64,000 nucleotides of DNA, taken from contig JAFIEI010000001.1 in the NCBI GenBank assembly GCA_020832565.1, forward strand, positions 62,001 through 126,000, read 5' to 3'. This DNA is from Salinarimonas sp. (GTDB lineage Bacteria > Pseudomonadota > Alphaproteobacteria > Rhizobiales > Beijerinckiaceae). How positions within the stretch are numbered: position 1 is the stretch's first letter; each line of letters begins with the position of its first letter. The position numbers were made by a program, and so were the translations under genes. Of the stretch, positions 4,362 to 46,501 are shown piece after piece. Under the pieces are notes generated by a model. It searched no databases. It had not been told where the DNA came from and worked only from the letters and a program-made list of their open reading frames with translations.

Positions 4362-6479
4362 ATGTCGGAGGAGAGCGCTGGTACGGGGCGGAAGAAGCAG
4401 GCAGCCGGTTCGCGATCAAAGGCGGCGCAAGAGGCCGAAGCGCCGGGGCAGGGCGCGGGGAAAGCAGCAACCGGGGAGACTCTGACCTCCGAGAAATCTG
4501 CTGTGTCCAAGGAGTCCTCTGCTCCCAAGAAGTCTTCTGCTCCCAAGAAATCCTCTGCTCCCAAAAAAGCCTCTGCTCCCAGGAAGCCGGCAGCATCCAA
4601 GAAAGCCTCTGAGAGCAAGAAGGCTCCTGCGACCAAGGAAGCCTCTGCGACCAAGGAAGCCTCTGCGACGAAGAAGGCTGCTGCGACGAAGAAAGCATCC
4701 GGATCCGAGAAGGCTGCTGCCGGCAAGCAGCCGGCACCATCGACGAAGTCTGCCGCAGGGAAGAAGGTCGCCTCCGGCTCGACCGGTTCGCAGGAGATTC
4801 CGCGCCCCTGGCTCGATCACTATCCCGATTTCGTGGAACGCGAGATCGACGAGGGCGCCGCGCCTGATCTGACAGAGCTGATTGATCGCACGGTCTCGCG
4901 CTACGGCGAGAATATCGCCTTCGAGAGCTTCGGCGTCGGGATGCGCTTCAAGGAACTCGACACGCATTCGCGGGCCGTGGCGGCATGGCTGGGCGCGCAG
5001 GGTTACGGCAAGGGAGACCGGATCGCGGTGATGATGCCGAATGTCATGGCGTATCCCGTGATCCTGTTCGGTATCCTCAGGGCCGGCTGCACGGTCGTCA
5101 ACGTCAACCCGCTCTATACGCCGCGCGAGCTCAAGCATCAGGTCAAGGATTCCGGGGCAAAGGTTCTCTTCGTGCTCGAGAATTTCGCCCATACGGTGGA
5201 GCGCTCGGAGCTTGCGAAGGCGGATCTGGCGCGTGTCGTTCTGGTCGCACCGGGTGATCTGCTCGGGCTCAAGGGCTTCCTCGTCAATACCGTATCGCGC
5301 TATGTGAAACGGGCGGTTCCCGGCTACACGCTACCCGGCGCTATCCGCCTGAGCGCCGTACTGAGCAATCCTGGCGCGCAGGGCTTCAAGCCGCGCGCGG
5401 TCGGCAAGGACGACATCGCCTTCCTGCAATATACCGGCGGCACCACCGGGCTGCCCAAGGGCGCGACGCTCCTGCATCGCAACGTCGCCACCAATGTCGC
5501 CCAGGTGAAGGCCTGGATCAGGCACGCGATCGAGGCGCGCAAGGAAAACGTGATCATCACCGCGTTGCCGCTATATCATATCTTCAGCCTCACGGCCTGC
5601 ATGGTGTTCTTCCAGTTCGGCGCGCGCCAGGTGCTGATCGCGAATCCACGCGATCTGCCCGGCATGATCGACACGCTGAAGAAGACGCCGTTCACCTGTG
5701 TCGTCTTCATCAACACGCTCTACAACGCGCTGGCCAATCATTCGCGCATCAAGGAAGTGGATTTCTCCCATCTCCACCTGTCGATCGCGGGCGGCATGTC
5801 CACGCAGAAGGCGGTGGCGCGCAAATGGAAGGCGCTGACCGGCTCGGCCATCGTCGAGGGCTACGGTCTGTCGGAGACCTCGCCCGTGGTCACGGCGAAC
5901 CGGCTCGACGTGGAGGACCATACCGGCACGATCGGCTATCCGCTGCCCTCGACGGATGTCGCCATCCGCGACGAGGAGGGCAACGTGCTCGGCTGCGAGG
6001 CGGAAGGCGAGTTGTGTGTGCGCGGGCCGCAGGTCATGGCCGGCTACTGGAACCAGCCCGAGGAAACGAAGAAGGTGATGACCGAAGACGGCTTCCTGCG
6101 TACCGGCGACGTGGCCGTGCTGCAGGAAGACGGGCTCGTGCGCATCGTCGACCGGATCAAGGACATGATCAGCGTCTCGGGCTTCAACGTCTATCCCAAC
6201 GAGGTGGAGGACGTGCTGGCCGACCACCCGCAGATCGCCGAGGCGGCAGTGGTCGGCATGCCGGACGACCATTCCGGCGAACGGGTCGTCGCCTATGTCG
6301 TGCTCCGGGACGAGGGGGTCACCGAGCAGCAGATCCGCGATCATTGCCGGGAATCGCTGACGAGCTACAAGGTCCCGCGCGAGGTCAAGTTCCGCGATTC
6401 GCTGCCCAAGACGAATGTCGGCAAGGTCCTGCGGCGGGCCCTGCGCGATTCCGATGAGGGGCGCCGGGAAGAGGCGTGA
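4362..6479 (+). CDS. fadD: Long-chain fatty acid-CoA ligase with Lys/Ala/Ser-rich N-terminal tail
   Basis: An ANL-family adenylate-forming ligase of 705 residues that couples long-chain fatty acids to CoA through an acyl-adenylate. The P-loop-like YTGGTTGLPKG begins at residue 357, followed by YGLSETSP, a GELCVRGP segment, the TGD motif and a C-terminal domain ending in a GKVLRR lysine loop. The enzyme proper starts near residue 146 (IPRPWLDHYP), as in other FadD proteins. Everything before that is a Lys/Ala/Ser/Pro-rich tail with hexapeptide repeats and no predicted fold. The ATG at 4362 is chosen because GGGAGGGAAAG precedes it; the frame is open 49 codons further upstream. The tail resembles bacterial histone H1-like sequences; its function is unknown. 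Confidence 0.9.
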   Translation: MSEESAGTGRKKQAAGSRSKAAQEAEAPGQGAGKAATGETLTSEKSAVSKESSAPKKSSAPKKSSAPKKASAPRKPAASKKASESKKAPATKEASATKEASATKKAAATKKASGSEKAAAGKQPAPSTKSAAGKKVASGSTGSQEIPRPWLDHYPDFVEREIDEGAAPDLTELIDRTVSRYGENIAFESFGVGMRFKELDTHSRAVAAWLGAQGYGKGDRIAVMMPNVMAYPVILFGILRAGCTVVNVNPLYTPRELKHQVKDSGAKVLFVLENFAHTVERSELAKADLARVVLVAPGDLLGLKGFLVNTVSRYVKRAVPGYTLPGAIRLSAVLSNPGAQGFKPRAVGKDDIAFLQYTGGTTGLPKGATLLHRNVATNVAQVKAWIRHAIEARKENVIITALPLYHIFSLTACMVFFQFGARQVLIANPRDLPGMIDTLKKTPFTCVVFINTLYNALANHSRIKEVDFSHLHLSIAGGMSTQKAVARKWKALTGSAIVEGYGLSETSPVVTANRLDVEDHTGTIGYPLPSTDVAIRDEEGNVLGCEAEGELCVRGPQVMAGYWNQPEETKKVMTEDGFLRTGDVAVLQEDGLVRIVDRIKDMISVSGFNVYPNEVEDVLADHPQIAEAAVVGMPDDHSGERVVAYVVLRDEGVTEQQIRDHCRESLTSYKVPREVKFRDSLPKTNVGKVLRRALRDSDEGRREEA
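4515..4700 (+). repeat. 18-bp tandem repeats in the fadD tail
   Basis: Two blocks of in-frame 18-base repeats. 4515-4586 holds four copies encoding SSAPKK (last copy ASAPRK). 4629-4700 holds four copies encoding ATKEAS or ATKKAS. Neighbouring copies differ at few positions, some at none, so copy number may vary between strains. Confidence 0.85.
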
Positions 6480-6830: not shown

Positions 6831-8618
6831 ATGAGCGAGATGATGACCGGAGCCGAAATGGTCGTCCGCGCCCTGCAGGACCAGGGTGTCGAGCATATCT
6901 TCGGATATCCCGGGGGCGCCGTACTTCCGATTTACGACGCGCTCTTCCATCAGGATTCGGTCGAGCATGTGCTCGTGCGCCACGAGCAGGGCGCCGTCCA
7001 TGCCGCAGAGGGCTATGCCCGCTCGACCGGCAAGGTCGGCTGCGTGCTCGTCACCTCGGGGCCAGGCGCGACCAATGCGGTTACCGGTCTCACCGATGCG
7101 ATGATGGATTCGATCCCGCTGGTCTGCATCACCGGCCAGGTGCCGACCCATCTGATCGGCTCCGACGCGTTCCAGGAATGCGACACGGTCGGCATCACCC
7201 GCCATTGCACCAAGCACAATTATCTCGTGAAGGACATCGCCGATCTGCCGCGCATCCTGCACGAGGCTTTCTATGTCGCTGCCAATGGCCGCCCCGGCCC
7301 GGTCGTGGTCGATCTGCCCAAGGACATCCAGTTCCAGACCGGCGCCTATGCCCGCCCGACGAGCAGCGAGCACAAGACCTACCGCCCCACTGTCAAGGGC
7401 GACATGGAGAAGATCCGCGCCGCGATCGAGCTGATCGGCGCAGCCAAGCGCCCGGTCTTCTATACCGGCGGCGGCGTGATCAATGCCGGCCCCCATGCCT
7501 CGGAGCTGCTGCGCGAACTGGTGCGTCTGACCGGCTTCCCGATCACCTCGACGCTGATGGGGCTCGGCGCCTATCCGGCTTCCGACAAGCAGTTCCTCGG
7601 CATGCTCGGCATGCACGGCACTTATGAGGCCAATCTGGCCATGCATGGCTGCGATCTGATGATCTGCATCGGCGCGCGTTTCGATGACCGCATCACCGGG
7701 CGGCTCGATGCCTTCTCGCCGCATTCGCGCAAGATCCACATCGATGTCGACCCGTCCTCGATCAACAAGAACGTCAAGGTCGATCTCGGCATCGTCGGCG
7801 ATTGCGGCTATGTGCTCGAAGACATGGTGCGCCTGTTCCGCTCGATGTCGCCGCAGATCGACAAGCCGGCCCTGACGAGCTGGTGGGAGCAGATCGAAAC
7901 CTGGCGGTCGCGCAAGTGCCTCGGCTATCGCCCCTCTACGGAGACGATCAAGCCGCAATTTGCAGTCGAACGCCTGTATCAGGCGACGCTCGGCCCGGCC
8001 GGGCGGGGGCGCGATACCTTTGTCACCACCGAGGTCGGCCAGCACCAGATGTGGGCGGCGCAGTATTTCGGCTTCGAGGAGCCCAATCGCTGGATGACGT
8101 CGGGCGGCCTCGGCACGATGGGCTACGGCCTGCCGGCGGCGATCGGCGTGCAGATGGCGCATCGCGACGGGCTCGTCATCGACATTGCCGGCGAGGCCTC
8201 GATCCTGATGAACATCCAGGAGATGTCGACGGCGGTGCAGTACCGGCTGCCGGTGAAGATCTTCATCCTCAACAATGAATATATGGGCATGGTGCGCCAG
8301 TGGCAGGAATTGCTGCATGGCGGGCGCTACTCGCAGAGCTACTCGGAATCGCTGCCCGATTTCGTCAAGCTGGCGGAAGCGTACGGCGCCGTCGGCATGC
8401 GCTGCGACAAGCCCGATGATCTGGACGGTGCGATCGAGGAGATGCTCGCCGTCGACCGCCCGGTCATTTTCGACTGCATCGTCGACAAGACCGAGAACTG
8501 CTTCCCGATGATCCCGTCGGGCAAGGCCCATAACGAGATGCTGCTGAACGACTATCTCTCGGAAGACAAGCAGGATATCGGCAACGCCATCGACGAGAAG
8601 GGCAAGATGCTGGTGTGA
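6831..8618 (+). CDS. ilvI: Acetolactate synthase, large (catalytic) subunit
   Basis: Thiamine-diphosphate enzyme of 595 residues, the first common step of valine, leucine and isoleucine synthesis (two pyruvate to acetolactate, or pyruvate plus 2-oxobutyrate). Features seen: the N-terminal domain [16 protein letters not shown] with the downstream catalytic Glu in HEQGA, a central FAD-binding domain with GARFDDR, and the C-terminal TPP motif from GEAS to [12 protein letters not shown]. The usual GDG of the TPP motif reads GEA here ([10 protein letters not shown]), as in rhizobial homologues. It is preceded by the leader peptide and attenuator; the regulatory subunit lies beyond a GST gene. The symbol ilvB would serve equally. 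Confidence 0.95.
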
Positions 8619-42115: not shown

Positions 42116-43285
42116 ATGACGAGTCTCGCCGCCAATTCCGCCATGCAGACCAGCGCGCCGCGGGCCGGTCTCGGTTGGCGCATCGCGCTGGTGATCGCCG
42201 GCATCGCGGCGGTCCTGACCGTCGCGGTACTGGCCGGGGCGCGCTACGGGCTGCTGCTCGCGGTCGGTCTCGGATTCGGGATCGTGCTGGAAGGCTTGCG
42301 CTTCGGCTTTGCCGGGCCGTGGCGGGCGCTGATCCTGCGGCGCGAACCGGCGGGGCTCGTCGCCCAGCTCATCGCCATCGGCGTGGTCGCCATCGTTGCG
42401 ATCCCGCTGATCGAGTCCCATTCCGGCGAGTTGATCGGGGCGCATGCCCCGGTCGGATTCGCCATGATCGGCGGCGCCTTCGTCTTCGGCATCGCGATGC
42501 AGATCGTGCTCGGCTGCGGCTCGGGTACGCTCGTTAATGCCGGTAGCGGCAATGCCGTGGGCGCCGTGGCGCTGCCCTTCTTCGCCATCGGCAGCTTCGC
42601 CGGGGCCTGGCATCTCGACTGGTGGACGGGGCTCGGCACCGCGCCGACCATCGCGCTCGGGGATGTCTTCGGCGCGAATGGCGGCCTCGCGGTCACCCTC
42701 GTCCTGCTCGCTCTCGTCGCGATCATCGCCCTGCGCGGTGCGGCGCCCGAGCATCGCCGCATCCCGCGTCGCCTGTGGCTCGCGGCGGGCTTCATCGCGG
42801 TCCTCGCGATCGCCAATCTCGTCATCGCCGGCCAGCCCTGGGGCGTCGTCTACGGGCTCGGGCTTTGGGCGGCCAAGGGCGCGACGGCTCTGGGCGCGGA
42901 TCTCTCCGGCTCCGCCTTCTGGAGTGCGCCGGCCAATATGGAGCGGGTGAGCCAGAGCCTGCTCACGGATGTCACCTCGCTCACCAATATCGGCATCATC
43001 GCCGGCGCAATGCTCGTCGCCTCGTGGCGGCGCGGCTTCGATCAGCCCGTAGCGAGGCTGCCGGCCGTTGCCTGGATCGCGGCGATCGTGGCGGGCCTGC
43101 TGCTCGGCTATTCCTCGCGGCTCGCCTTCGGCTGCAATGTCGGCGCCTTCTTCAGCGGCATCTCGACGGGCAGCCTGCATGGCTGGGTCTGGTTCGCTGC
43201 CGCCTTCGTCGGCTCGATTCTCGGCGTGAAGCTGCGAGCGCGGCTCGGTTTCGAGGGTGCGCCGAACCGGGGAGGTCACAAATGA
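42116..43285 (+). CDS. YeeE/YedE family thiosulfate-type transporter
   Basis: 389 residues with about nine to ten membrane helices. The repeat cysteine motifs are present: GCGSGTLVNAGSGN in the first half and GCNVGAFFSGISTGSLHGW in the second. These match the TsuA/YeeE/PmpA fold in which cysteines relay thiosulfate through the membrane. It is preceded by an exported rhodanese and overlaps the next small gene by four bases. Thiosulfate uptake is likely, but other sulfur species remain possible. Confidence 0.88.
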   Translation: MTSLAANSAMQTSAPRAGLGWRIALVIAGIAAVLTVAVLAGARYGLLLAVGLGFGIVLEGLRFGFAGPWRALILRREPAGLVAQLIAIGVVAIVAIPLIESHSGELIGAHAPVGFAMIGGAFVFGIAMQIVLGCGSGTLVNAGSGNAVGAVALPFFAIGSFAGAWHLDWWTGLGTAPTIALGDVFGANGGLAVTLVLLALVAIIALRGAAPEHRRIPRRLWLAAGFIAVLAIANLVIAGQPWGVVYGLGLWAAKGATALGADLSGSAFWSAPANMERVSQSLLTDVTSLTNIGIIAGAMLVASWRRGFDQPVARLPAVAWIAAIVAGLLLGYSSRLAFGCNVGAFFSGISTGSLHGWVWFAAAFVGSILGVKLRARLGFEGAPNRGGHK

Positions 43286-43452
43286 GCCGCCGCCCCGTCG
43301 CCATCGCCGTCGCGCTGCTGCTTCTCGGCATACTCGCCCTCGATACCGGCATCAGCGCCCCGCTGAATCCCTTCGCGGCCCCATCCCCGATAGCGCTCGG
43401 TTCCGGCCAGGCCGCCGGCGGCGCCCATTGCGCGGCCCCCGCGACGCGGTGA
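43282..43452 (+). CDS. Small exported or membrane peptide of the sulfur operon
   Basis: 56 residues: basic start MSRRP, a hydrophobic segment (residues 6-20), then a Pro/Ala/Gly-rich stretch and a single Cys at position 50 near the end. It has an excellent ribosome site (GGGGAGGTCACAAATG) and overlaps the transporter stop by ATGA, so it is very likely translated. No family is recognised. Its last codons and stop lie inside the left copy of the direct repeat that borders the restriction-modification island. Confidence 0.7.
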   Translation: MSRRPVAIAVALLLLGILALDTGISAPLNPFAAPSPIALGSGQAAGGAHCAAPATR

Positions 43453-43467
43453 GGGTTCGGTCGTGGC
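43437..43467 (+). repeat. Left direct repeat of the restriction-modification island
   Basis: 31 bases beginning CCCCGCGACGCGGTGAGGGT and ending TCGTGGC. It matches 45739-45769 at 29 of 31 positions in the same orientation. It covers the final codons and stop of the 56-residue peptide gene. Confidence 0.85.
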
Positions 43468-43566
43468 GCTTGTGAACAATAAAGGAACAAAACTTGTGGA
43501 TTAAGACTTTTCATTCCAGACTATTCATCCGAAAGTGGCGTTGGTGATTCTGGAGTGAGGTGTCGG

Positions 43567-44736
43567 ATGAAGGTTGCAGGTTTGTTTGCCGGCATCGGTG
43601 GCTTGGAGGTCGGCCTCGCCAACGCGGGGCATGAAACGGTGTTGCTGTCCGAGATTTGGCAACCTGCGCGTTCCGTCTTGGAGGAACGCTATCCGGAAAT
43701 TCCACTTCCCGGCGACATTGCGAGCGTTCGTGCGCTCCCTGCGGATACGGATATCATCACGGCAGGGTTTCCTTGTCAGGATTTGAGCCAAGCGGGGCGG
43801 ACGGCCGGAATCGCTGGGGCACGTTCCGGTCTCGTAGGCCATATTTTTCGCCTATTGGATCAGCAACCGGTTCCGTGGGTGGTTCTGGAGAACGTTTCGT
43901 TCATGCTGCATCTCGACAAGGGACGTGCGTTGCGCACGCTCGTGGAGGCTTTCGAGGAGCGAGGTTACCGCTGGGCATATCGTGTCGTGAATTCGCTTGC
44001 ATTCTTGCCACAGCGTCGCGAGCGCGTGATTTTTTTGGCGACGAAGACGGATGTCAATCCGTCTGATGTGCTGTTTGCGGATGAGGCCGCGCCTCCAGCC
44101 TTCGAGACGACCCTCGACACGCATGCCCACGGCTTCTACTGGACCGAAGGCGTGCGGGGCCTCGGCTGGGCGCAGGATGCGATCCCGACCCTCAAGAACG
44201 GCTCGACGGTCGGTATCGCATCTCCGCCGGCCATATTGCTCCCCGATGGTGGCGTCGTTACACCGGACATTCGGGATGCCGAGCGGCTGCAGGGCTTCTC
44301 AGCAGATTGGACGCAGCCTGCCGAGAATACCGGGCGGGCCTCGTTGCGCTGGTCGCTCGTGGGTAATGCGGTCACGGTTCCCGTGGCAGAGTGGCTCGGT
44401 CACCGCCTCGGTGCCCCGGGAAGCTTCGACCCTTCACGTGATCAGGCGTTGCCGAAAGATGGCCGCTGGCCGAAGGCTGCGCGCTTCGATGGGTCTGTCA
44501 GAAAGGCTGTAGCTATTTCGACGTTTCCGGAATTTCGAGAGCGGGATCCGCTCACACGCTTCCTGCAGTATCCCGGCAAACCCCTTTCCGAGCGTGCGAC
44601 GCGCGGCTTCCTCTCGCGCACGCGAAAAAGCACATTGCGGTTTCCGCCGGGCTTCATCGATGCTCTGGATCGGCATCTTGATACGATGGAAATTGCGAGC
44701 ACGCAGCGGTCCGTTCTCACCATCGCCGCAGAATGA
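43567..44736 (+). CDS. DNA (cytosine-5-)-methyltransferase
   Basis: 389 residues. Motif I is KVAGLFAGIGGLEVGL, the catalytic motif IV GFPCQDLSQAG with Cys70, motif VI ENV (108-110), motif VIII QRRERV (149-154) and motif X RWSLVGNAVTVPVAEWLG near residue 265. The target-recognition region between VIII and X is short. All catalytic elements are intact. The ATG at 43567 has a GAGG site; GTG at 43555 is an alternative. It faces a nuclease gene 52 bases away, so it is likely the M partner of a type II system. Recognition sequence unknown. Confidence 0.92.
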   Translation: MKVAGLFAGIGGLEVGLANAGHETVLLSEIWQPARSVLEERYPEIPLPGDIASVRALPADTDIITAGFPCQDLSQAGRTAGIAGARSGLVGHIFRLLDQQPVPWVVLENVSFMLHLDKGRALRTLVEAFEERGYRWAYRVVNSLAFLPQRRERVIFLATKTDVNPSDVLFADEAAPPAFETTLDTHAHGFYWTEGVRGLGWAQDAIPTLKNGSTVGIASPPAILLPDGGVVTPDIRDAERLQGFSADWTQPAENTGRASLRWSLVGNAVTVPVAEWLGHRLGAPGSFDPSRDQALPKDGRWPKAARFDGSVRKAVAISTFPEFRERDPLTRFLQYPGKPLSERATRGFLSRTRKSTLRFPPGFIDALDRHLDTMEIASTQRSVLTIAAE

Positions 44737-44788
44737 CGGGCGGCGGGCGCTTGCCGGACGCGTTCCGCAGGGACTTTCGCTGCGGCTG

Positions 44789-45637
44789 TCAGAGATCCTT
44801 GAAGCGCGTCGCGTAAATTGCTGCCAGACGATCAATCATAGCCGCGTAGTGATAGTTGCCGCCCGGTTGCGGAGCAGGCGCGCGGTTGAACAGCGTCACC
44901 GGCGAGCCGTCATTCGCGCATGAAACGACGACGATCGCCAGCGCATCGTAGCCTTGATCACCAGTTTTGCTGCGACGCGGAAGCTGCGCAACCTTGTCGA
45001 CGGTGATTTGCGCGTCTTTGGGTTGCCGATGGGTGCTCCATTCCGGGTCCGACTGGCGATGCTTCTTGTTGAGGTCGGGGCTAAGGTAGCGCTCGGCGAT
45101 GTTTACCATGACGAAGCCCGCCGCGATCGCCTGATCGCTCGCACCGTGAACCGTCAGATGCGAGGAGTTCAACTCGTCGTAGAGCCGGGGTAACGCACGT
45201 TGGTGGGCCGTCATGCAGGCTTTTGCTTCGAGTGCCATGAGGACCGACCCGACTGGAGCACGCTTCAGGGACGGCAACTGACGAAGCGCTTCCTGCTCGT
45301 CTTCGGACAAGGTAATGTGGTACTCGGCAACCATGTCTGCCAGCGTACCAACCCGACCATGCCGGGCTGCGCCTGAGGGTGTGCACAGGACGAGGTCGAG
45401 GTCCTTCTTACGATCGTTGCTGAAGTCGCGCATTTCGTGGTTGATCCCGAACGCGACGCGACCGTCGGCGATCTGACGGCGCAGCAGGGGGCAGTGACAC
45501 AGCATGTCGAATACGATACCCCAGCATGCGACTTTCGAGTGATGGTCGCTGCGGGAATGGTATTGCCAATCGTTTCCGTAACGATCTCGCCGGGTTGGGC
45601 GTGAAAGTGTTCTGGCGAGGATGTCCGGACCAAACAT
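44789..45637 (-). CDS. Probable type II restriction endonuclease
   Basis: 282 residues, no family recognised with certainty. A PD-(D/E)XK nuclease core is suggested by KDLDLVL (Asp79/Asp81) and LEAKA (Glu137, Lys139) in a hydrophobic strand, with the expected spacing of about 55 residues. The N-terminus is rich in His, Arg and Trp (WQYHSRSDHHSKVACWG). It is convergent with the methyltransferase inside the repeat-bracketed island, the classical R-M layout. The open frame continues upstream into maf on the other strand; the ATG at 45637 is chosen because the sequence upstream lies antisense to maf and its leader. Confidence 0.72.
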   Translation of the reverse strand: MFGPDILARTLSRPTRRDRYGNDWQYHSRSDHHSKVACWGIVFDMLCHCPLLRRQIADGRVAFGINHEMRDFSNDRKKDLDLVLCTPSGAARHGRVGTLADMVAEYHITLSEDEQEALRQLPSLKRAPVGSVLMALEAKACMTAHQRALPRLYDELNSSHLTVHGASDQAIAAGFVMVNIAERYLSPDLNKKHRQSDPEWSTHRQPKDAQITVDKVAQLPRRSKTGDQGYDALAIVVVSCANDGSPVTLFNRAPAPQPGGNYHYAAMIDRLAAIYATRFKDL

Positions 45638-45738
45638 GTCGCGCGAATCTTTCGTTTTGTTCTGTGATAGATCGTTACAGTGCCGCGCCGGATTTGTCGA
45701 CGGTTGCGCTCGGAAAGGTTGTTCACTGCGCGACAAGA

Positions 45739-45769
45739 CCCCGCGACGCGGTGAGGGTGCGCTCGTGGC
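45739..45769 (+). repeat. Right direct repeat of the restriction-modification island
   Basis: Second copy of the 31-base repeat, differing from the left copy at two positions. It lies 82 bases before the maf start. It again contains the codon string PATR-stop in the equivalent register, as expected if the 3' end of the upstream small gene was duplicated. Confidence 0.85.
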
Positions 45770-45850: not shown

Positions 45851-46501
45851 ATGGTGCTGTCGTTCAAGGAAAAAGACAAGGATTGGCGGCCGAGGCTGGT
45901 TCTGGCCTCGGCTTCGCCGCGTCGGCTGGCCCTGCTGCAGCAGGTCGGAATCGAGCCGGATGCGCTGTTGCCCGCCGATGTCGACGAGACGCCGGAGAGG
46001 ACCGAAACGCCCCGCGATCTGGCGCGTCGCCTCGGGCGGTTGAAGGCGCAAGGCGCAAGGCGGGTCGCGGAAAAGGACGAGACGCTCGGGCATTGCTTCG
46101 TCGTGGCTGCCGATACCGTCGTCGCGCTCGGAAGACGCATCCTGCCCAAGACCGAGACGATGGACGAAGCCGCAGCCTGCCTGCGGATGCTCTCGGGTCG
46201 CCAGCACAGGGTCTATACCGGGATCAGCGTGATCACCCCGAAGGGTAACCGGCGCGAGAAGCTCGTCGAATCGCGTGTGCGTTTCAAGCGGCTCTCCCCC
46301 GACGAAATCGAAAGCTATCTCGCTTCCGGCGAGTGGCGCGGCAAGGCGGGGGGATATGCGATCCAGGGGCTCGGCGGCAGTTTCGTCGTGCGGCTCGTCG
46401 GCTCCTATTCCAATGTGGTGGGGCTGCCCCTTTACGAAACCGTGTCTCTGCTGGAAGGTGAAGGCTATCCCGTGCGCCTCTCCTGGCTGAACGCTGCGTA
46501 A
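45851..46501 (+). CDS. maf: Maf-like nucleotide pyrophosphatase
   Basis: 216 residues. Hydrolyses non-canonical or canonical nucleoside triphosphates (dTTP/UTP in most YhdE-type members) to monophosphates. [18 protein letters not shown] is the family N-terminus, VAADTVV holds the catalytic Asp, and [10 protein letters not shown] is the conserved C-terminal loop. It is followed by an acyl-CoA synthetase and then yacG; maf and yacG are usual neighbours in this group. Confidence 0.9.

Follow-up and report, generated by a model that had tools for sequence, protein, structure and literature searches.

Insertion of restriction-modification (R-M) units with long and variable target duplications is a described phenomenon, for which Nobusato et al. 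(2000) and Furuta et al. (2010) are cited (PMC3874152, PMC3031569, PMC1643837), and the available text of one of these sources gives the length of the duplications as the "order of 100 bp" (PMC3874152). The same text recognizes a second class of insertion, in which the duplication is short and the terminal inverted repeats are imperfect, and records both that the SOS response is induced by post-segregational killing and by unbalanced R-M activity and that LexA represses the toxin symE (PMC3874152). In Caulobacter, the LexA consensus is GTTC-N7-GTTC in the accessible portion of PMC12700426. According to the accessible portion of PMC12907096, which concerns ScmA and VsrA of this organism, C5 methylation is coupled to SOS there in that its loss triggers the response, and the gene vsrA is SOS-induced and contains a GTTC-N7-GTTC site.

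The unit discussed here lies within a 64,000-nucleotide stretch of a Salinarimonas sp. genome (contig JAFIEI010000001.1, positions 62,001 to 126,000, forward strand), which is referred to as the window and supplies all coordinates that carry no prefix. A methyltransferase gene (M) and a predicted nuclease gene (R) are set there between two direct repeats at the end of a small host gene. Taken as a whole, an insertion with target duplication that brought along its own SOS switch is considered a likely explanation of the island. Its features are as follows.

43282-43452, + strand: ORF for a 56-aa peptide, host side, between a transporter-like gene and maf
43437-43467, + strand: left direct-repeat copy, 31 bp, from repeat comparison; one copy in the congener locus L004
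43474-43488, + strand: predicted LexA (SOS) operator GAAC-AATAAAG-GAAC, upstream of M and six bases inward of the left repeat
43567-44736, + strand: M, C5-cytosine DNA methyltransferase, 389 aa (PF00145, 2e-45)
44789-45637, - strand: R, predicted restriction endonuclease, 282 aa, PD-(D/E)XK-like, convergent with M
45739-45769, + strand: right direct-repeat copy, 31 bp, from repeat comparison
45851-46501, + strand: maf, host side (NF002401, 1e-99)

M also gives a near full-length match to the PADLOC model PDLC03324 MTase_II (2e-157), and the 56-aa peptide matches no family in Pfam, NCBIfam or PADLOC. The gene names transporter-like, acyl-CoA-synthetase-like, hemA-like, helicase-like, dnaE2-like and ssb were assigned by eye and carry no family call. 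R is without a match in Pfam, NCBIfam and PADLOC, and a PDB sequence search returned nothing below E 0.97. The best structural matches of its AlphaFold model (pLDDT 93) include the restriction enzymes NgoMIV (Z 8.6) and BbvCI (8.2), beside NucC (8.1) and, lower, EcoRI (6.8), a range of Z that indicates a common fold only, and the best Foldseek E value is 0.017. Residues D83 and E139-x-K141, in the numbering of P0001, which begins two residues ahead of the start codon, are invariant across 48 aligned R sequences. R is predicted to be a restriction endonuclease, possibly with a PD-(D/E)XK-like fold. The initial annotation had given a methyltransferase and a convergent nuclease gene as the sole content of the island; the content and the orientation stand, and the nuclease, matching no named family, is a prediction.

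The description of the framing repeats in the initial annotation holds throughout. The copies are identical at 29 of 31 positions, at a spacing of 2302, and the left one contains the last codons and the stop (43450-43452) of the peptide ORF. The best local score between the two 1.2-kb flanks of the island is 25, far above the scores of 500 dinucleotide-preserving shuffles, which reach 17 at most. A search of the 4.09-Mb draft genome with the 20 leading bases of this sequence, at up to three mismatches, matches only the two framing copies (one match for a reversed control); judged by these bases in that draft, the framing repeats are not copies of an insertion sequence, and an IS-framed composite transposon was not encountered. 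The copies enclose 2,271 bp, of which M and R occupy 2,019 bp and thus leave no space for a recombinase, whose absence had been noted before. The GC content, 57-65% within the island and 58-71% in windows up to about 3 kb away, is a weak sign of insertion.

A congener, G003, carries the corresponding host region at locus L004, with the transporter-like gene, the peptide, maf and the acyl-CoA-synthetase-like gene 91, 69, 93 and 89% identical and in conserved order. Between the peptide stop and maf of this genome M and R are absent and the repeat region is present in a single copy, and the window from which M-R and one repeat have been removed aligns continuously with the G003 site. A syntenic site was sought in two further congeners and none was obtained, the empty site being that of one genome. 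It could also have arisen if the island were ancestral and recombination between the repeats had removed it from G003: deletion between direct repeats yields an identical one-copy site, and the syntenic site comes from a single congener. Such a loss is nevertheless highly improbable, as R is absent from all three congeners (one of these genomes is 74% complete) and from 388 of the 397 genomes of the family, the nine with R including the window's own genome. Moreover, the repeat copies resemble each other (29/31) more closely than they do the G003 site, with which they share 22 and 21 identities over 32 columns that include two gaps; the duplication thus probably postdates the split. The sporadic occurrence of R speaks against conservation of the island across the order, and the reading offered in the initial annotation, an R-M unit inserted with target duplication, is supported by the outcome that it had named as a check, a one-copy empty site, in one congener; on these sequence comparisons it is very probably correct.

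The window's genome (G000) holds a second unit, made up of a NotI-type R gene (PF12183, 5e-120) and a C5 methyltransferase gene (PF00145, 1e-65).

L177:6404-8920, which is G000:C26:144403-146919 (L177 being G000:C26:138000-150000): NotI-type R-M unit

Repeats of 74 bp (71/74 identical) frame this unit, one being a tRNA-Thr gene and the other a copy that ARAGORN rejects as tRNA. In G003 (L180), both flanks are collinear over a single tRNA-Thr gene, at 86-88% identity and overlapping at the tRNA, and the NotI-type unit has no match in that site. In G001 and G002 a single tRNA-Thr is seen and the unit is unmatched, but so is the far flank, in G002 because the contig ends. A relative of the window unit itself (M 72%, R 71%) is framed in genome G106 of the same family.

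L097:5155-8129: M-vsr-R unit framed by two copies of the cysG 3' end, 158/158 identical

Of 39 genus members, only G106 was seen to have an extra piece of exactly these 158 bp; G381 (9% contamination) instead shows another match, which is full-length. The cysG side is present in all 29 congener loci examined, with a single repeat match (left-flank query) in 28 of them, and the L097 unit has no match within the 1.5-kb flanks of these 29. In the congeners the second flank of L097 was not located next to cysG, and the empty junction is seen from one side. At the left copy a stop codon lies just past the repeat, and the cysG gene by the right copy extends 15 codons into the insert. Finally, at locus L044 (Bradyrhizobium) the end of a helicase-like gene recurs in degenerate form (35/43); the right copy there is 92% identical over 48 bp to the helicase-like gene end of L043, and as a framed insertion this locus is suggestive only.

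The target in the window unit, the NotI-type unit, L097 and L044 is in each case the 3' end of a gene, as expected if harmless insertions alone survive. Gene 3' ends and tRNA genes are the usual sites of integrase-borne islands, and these units sit at such ends, one of them at a tRNA gene; the repeats could then be attL and attR of units integrated as circles in a site-specific manner by an integrase that acted in trans or has since disappeared. This is very unlikely. No space for an integrase exists beside the R-M (and vsr) genes of the three clear units, and the duplications of 31, 74 and 158 bp, of unrelated sequence and different even between two relatives, point to a variable and not a site-specific process. 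Furthermore, the 158-bp copies of L097 are identical, while the two nearest congeners diverge there by 19-22%, which makes it probable that the second copy was derived from the host's own sequence. Homology-assisted capture, in which a donor with M-R and a similar gene end would recombine by one crossover, followed by illegitimate or circle joining, would fit tRNA and cysG ends, these being sufficiently conserved for recombination, and a near-identical donor could supply the copies. It is considered unlikely, however, because 31 bp of poorly conserved sequence would be a weak substrate and 158/158 identity demands a donor almost identical to the host at that point.

In an insertion with target duplication, a compact type II unit, comprising M and R each with its promoter region, would enter at a host gene's 3' end and in doing so duplicate about 31 bp of the target. 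Owing to the lack of a recombinase in the unit and of any shared terminal sequence seen, the joining would probably fall to host repair or replication, which would insert the fragment at a break that was staggered or re-copied. The pair GTGAACAA/TTGTTCAC near the inner ends was rejected as terminal inverted repeats, as the left one belongs to the SOS box, and no such ends are visible by eye in L097 or L044.

Relatives of R are encoded at 52 loci, and M adjoins R in 54 (50 distinct) once eight family loci are added; four loci are counted twice in the orientations, which are convergent in 40 and tandem in 14. With a C5 methyltransferase gene beside a gene for a predicted endonuclease, the unit has the composition of a type II system. 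A vsr-like gene, recognized by motif, lies between M and R in 26 loci, and Pfam confirmed Vsr in both of the two such genes checked; the window unit has no such gene, and a search of the window's genome gave no Vsr. A scan for framing repeats in the 49 distinct units with both flanks gave clear results for the window and L097, a weak one for L044 (score 19), and a score of 15 for L040, which equals the 99% point of the cross-pair control, in which one pair nevertheless scored 28. Most of the other relatives among these 49 have no framing repeat, and old insertions would presumably have lost theirs; no target or repeat sequence common to the relatives was seen. In the Sphingomonas unit L046, near-identical palindromic 15-mers, TGCAACC[CG]GTTGCAA, stand at 4843-4857 and 7501-7515, at similar distances outside both genes, and may be an operator or due to chance.

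The second property of the island, which the initial annotation does not mention, concerns the control of M. Of 35 alphaproteobacterial units, 29 have the box GAAC-N7-GAAC in the 200 bp that precede M and none has it ahead of R; the count for M is 27 of 33 when the window and L044, where it was first noticed, are excluded. Spacers of 0-6 and 8-15 occur in one unit at most each, and letter shuffles give a mean of 0.22 units and a largest value of 2. The regions upstream of M otherwise have little in common for the most part (best local score: median 8, at most 10 for the window), and after similar ones are merged the box is present in 24 of 30 groups, 39-133 bp ahead of M. The exact box is missing from L035, L063, L064, L096, L101 and L102, of which L101 has a one-mismatch form. 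A search of 385 genomes of the class yielded four further homologues of M. The box is present at L187, where no R is visible over the 1.2 kb up to the contig end; L188 is apparently the genome of L039; and L189 and L190, of one genus, lack the box, with R not seen within 1.5 kb. No sigma-70 match was found beside the box, and no 7-mer or dyad is prominent as a conserved motif before R. In the non-alphaproteobacterial unit L074 (Akkermansiaceae), GTTC-N4-GAAC stands about 50 bp before M and may be an SOS site used by that group; L073 and L077 each contain one half of this sequence. Such sites of other types were set aside as support, as L074 alone is complete and this is too few.

The window's genome contains 70 matches to GAAC-N7-GAAC as against 52 for the reversed control, and thus single matches mean little. 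A box at 210004-210018 lies upstream of lexA (TIGR00498; G000:C101:209191-209955). A check of the genes that follow boxes covered the forward-strand, AT-rich matches within 30 of the 70, plus lexA; three of the five such forward-strand boxes precede nameable genes, namely ssb, a dnaE2-like gene and the M of the NotI-type unit. Among six homologues of the latter M, the box occurs at 135-256 bp in four (its own and three others) and is missing from the two that are most distant; a NotI-like gene is nearby only in its own locus and L192, and the unit's own box sits inside the end of its R gene. Other alphaproteobacterial C5-methyltransferase genes (L206-L285) have the box within 400 bp in 16 of 70 cases and within 250 bp in 11 of 70; in the 400-bp control, shuffles gave a mean of 0.82 and a largest value of 5, and other spacers 3 at most.

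The box could instead serve as operator for M itself, or for a regulator other than LexA, given that LexA binding is here a prediction from DNA sequence. Some type II methyltransferases do control their own genes. Against this, the same box precedes lexA, the dnaE2-like gene and ssb in the window's genome, recurs before homologues of a different M and before the further methyltransferase genes just described, and is present in none of the 15 non-alphaproteobacterial relatives, in which LexA sites are of other kinds. In addition, the window box exactly fits, spacing included, the LexA consensus of Caulobacter as given in the accessible portion of PMC12700426. An operator for a protein other than LexA is therefore improbable, and the box at 43474-43488 is probably a LexA operator. 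Control of the C-protein type was also rejected for the window unit, which has no third gene. Hence M seems, from its upstream sequence, to be tied to the DNA-damage response, a link that recurs in many relatives.

Under LexA control, the repressor bound at GAAC-N7-GAAC would keep M at a basal level. DNA damage, the cutting of under-methylated host sites by R included, would then lead via RecA-LexA signalling to cleavage of LexA, upon which M would rise and the genome would be re-protected. Whether the box serves this feedback, with cuts by R calling forth more M, is put at even odds, and a weaker reading is that SOS repair synthesis merely requires extra methylation. On arrival in a new host, the entering DNA and the first cuts would induce SOS, which would suit the same circuit; a difficulty is that the LexA of the new host would repress M immediately, such that basal transcription must suffice. 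More broadly, LexA may widely control C5-methyltransferases in the Alphaproteobacteria, and not the nucleases (as judged from the family tested), and provide a damage-sensing homeostat that aids the establishment of minimal R-M units in new hosts and their persistence once inserted, a proposal for which the chances appear equally balanced. These considerations bear on how recombinase-free R-M units move and spare new hosts. If true, a large part of a bacterial class would have restriction linked to its SOS response, methylation surges would be predicted after DNA damage, and the circuit would place an antidote under an alarm triggered by its toxin.

In comparison with known systems, the window island resembles the described long-duplication insertions in being a recombinase-free unit with long, variable direct repeats, one copy of which marks the empty site of a relative. 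Its 31 bp nevertheless fall below the "order of 100 bp" in the available text of PMC3874152, and, in contrast to the short-duplication class of the same text, the unit has no convincing terminal inverted repeats. Whereas such insertions have been described before, here one genome carries two units, each with an empty site in the same congener. As in type II C5 R-M systems with Vsr, M belongs to PF00145 and a vsr-like gene accompanies 23 of 50 distinct relatives, but the window R matches no named family searched and its unit lacks vsr. Like SOS-regulated toxin-antitoxin genes, the unit would be a toxin and antidote pair affected by SOS; for symE, however, LexA represses the toxin (PMC3874152, available text), whereas the predicted site of the window unit is on the antidote, M, only. 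No report of LexA control of a restriction methyltransferase was found in the accessible literature searched, which includes PMC2614495, and the word LexA is absent from the available text of a 2025 R-M review (PMC12707154). The nearest described case to the SOS-linked M is Caulobacter VsrA (PMC12907096, accessible portion): C5 methylation is coupled to SOS there and would be so here, although in Caulobacter the site is within the Vsr gene and ScmA is solitary, whereas in the window unit the predicted site stands before the methyltransferase. The window insertion is of an already described kind, though a clean example, and it is the SOS link that merits follow-up.
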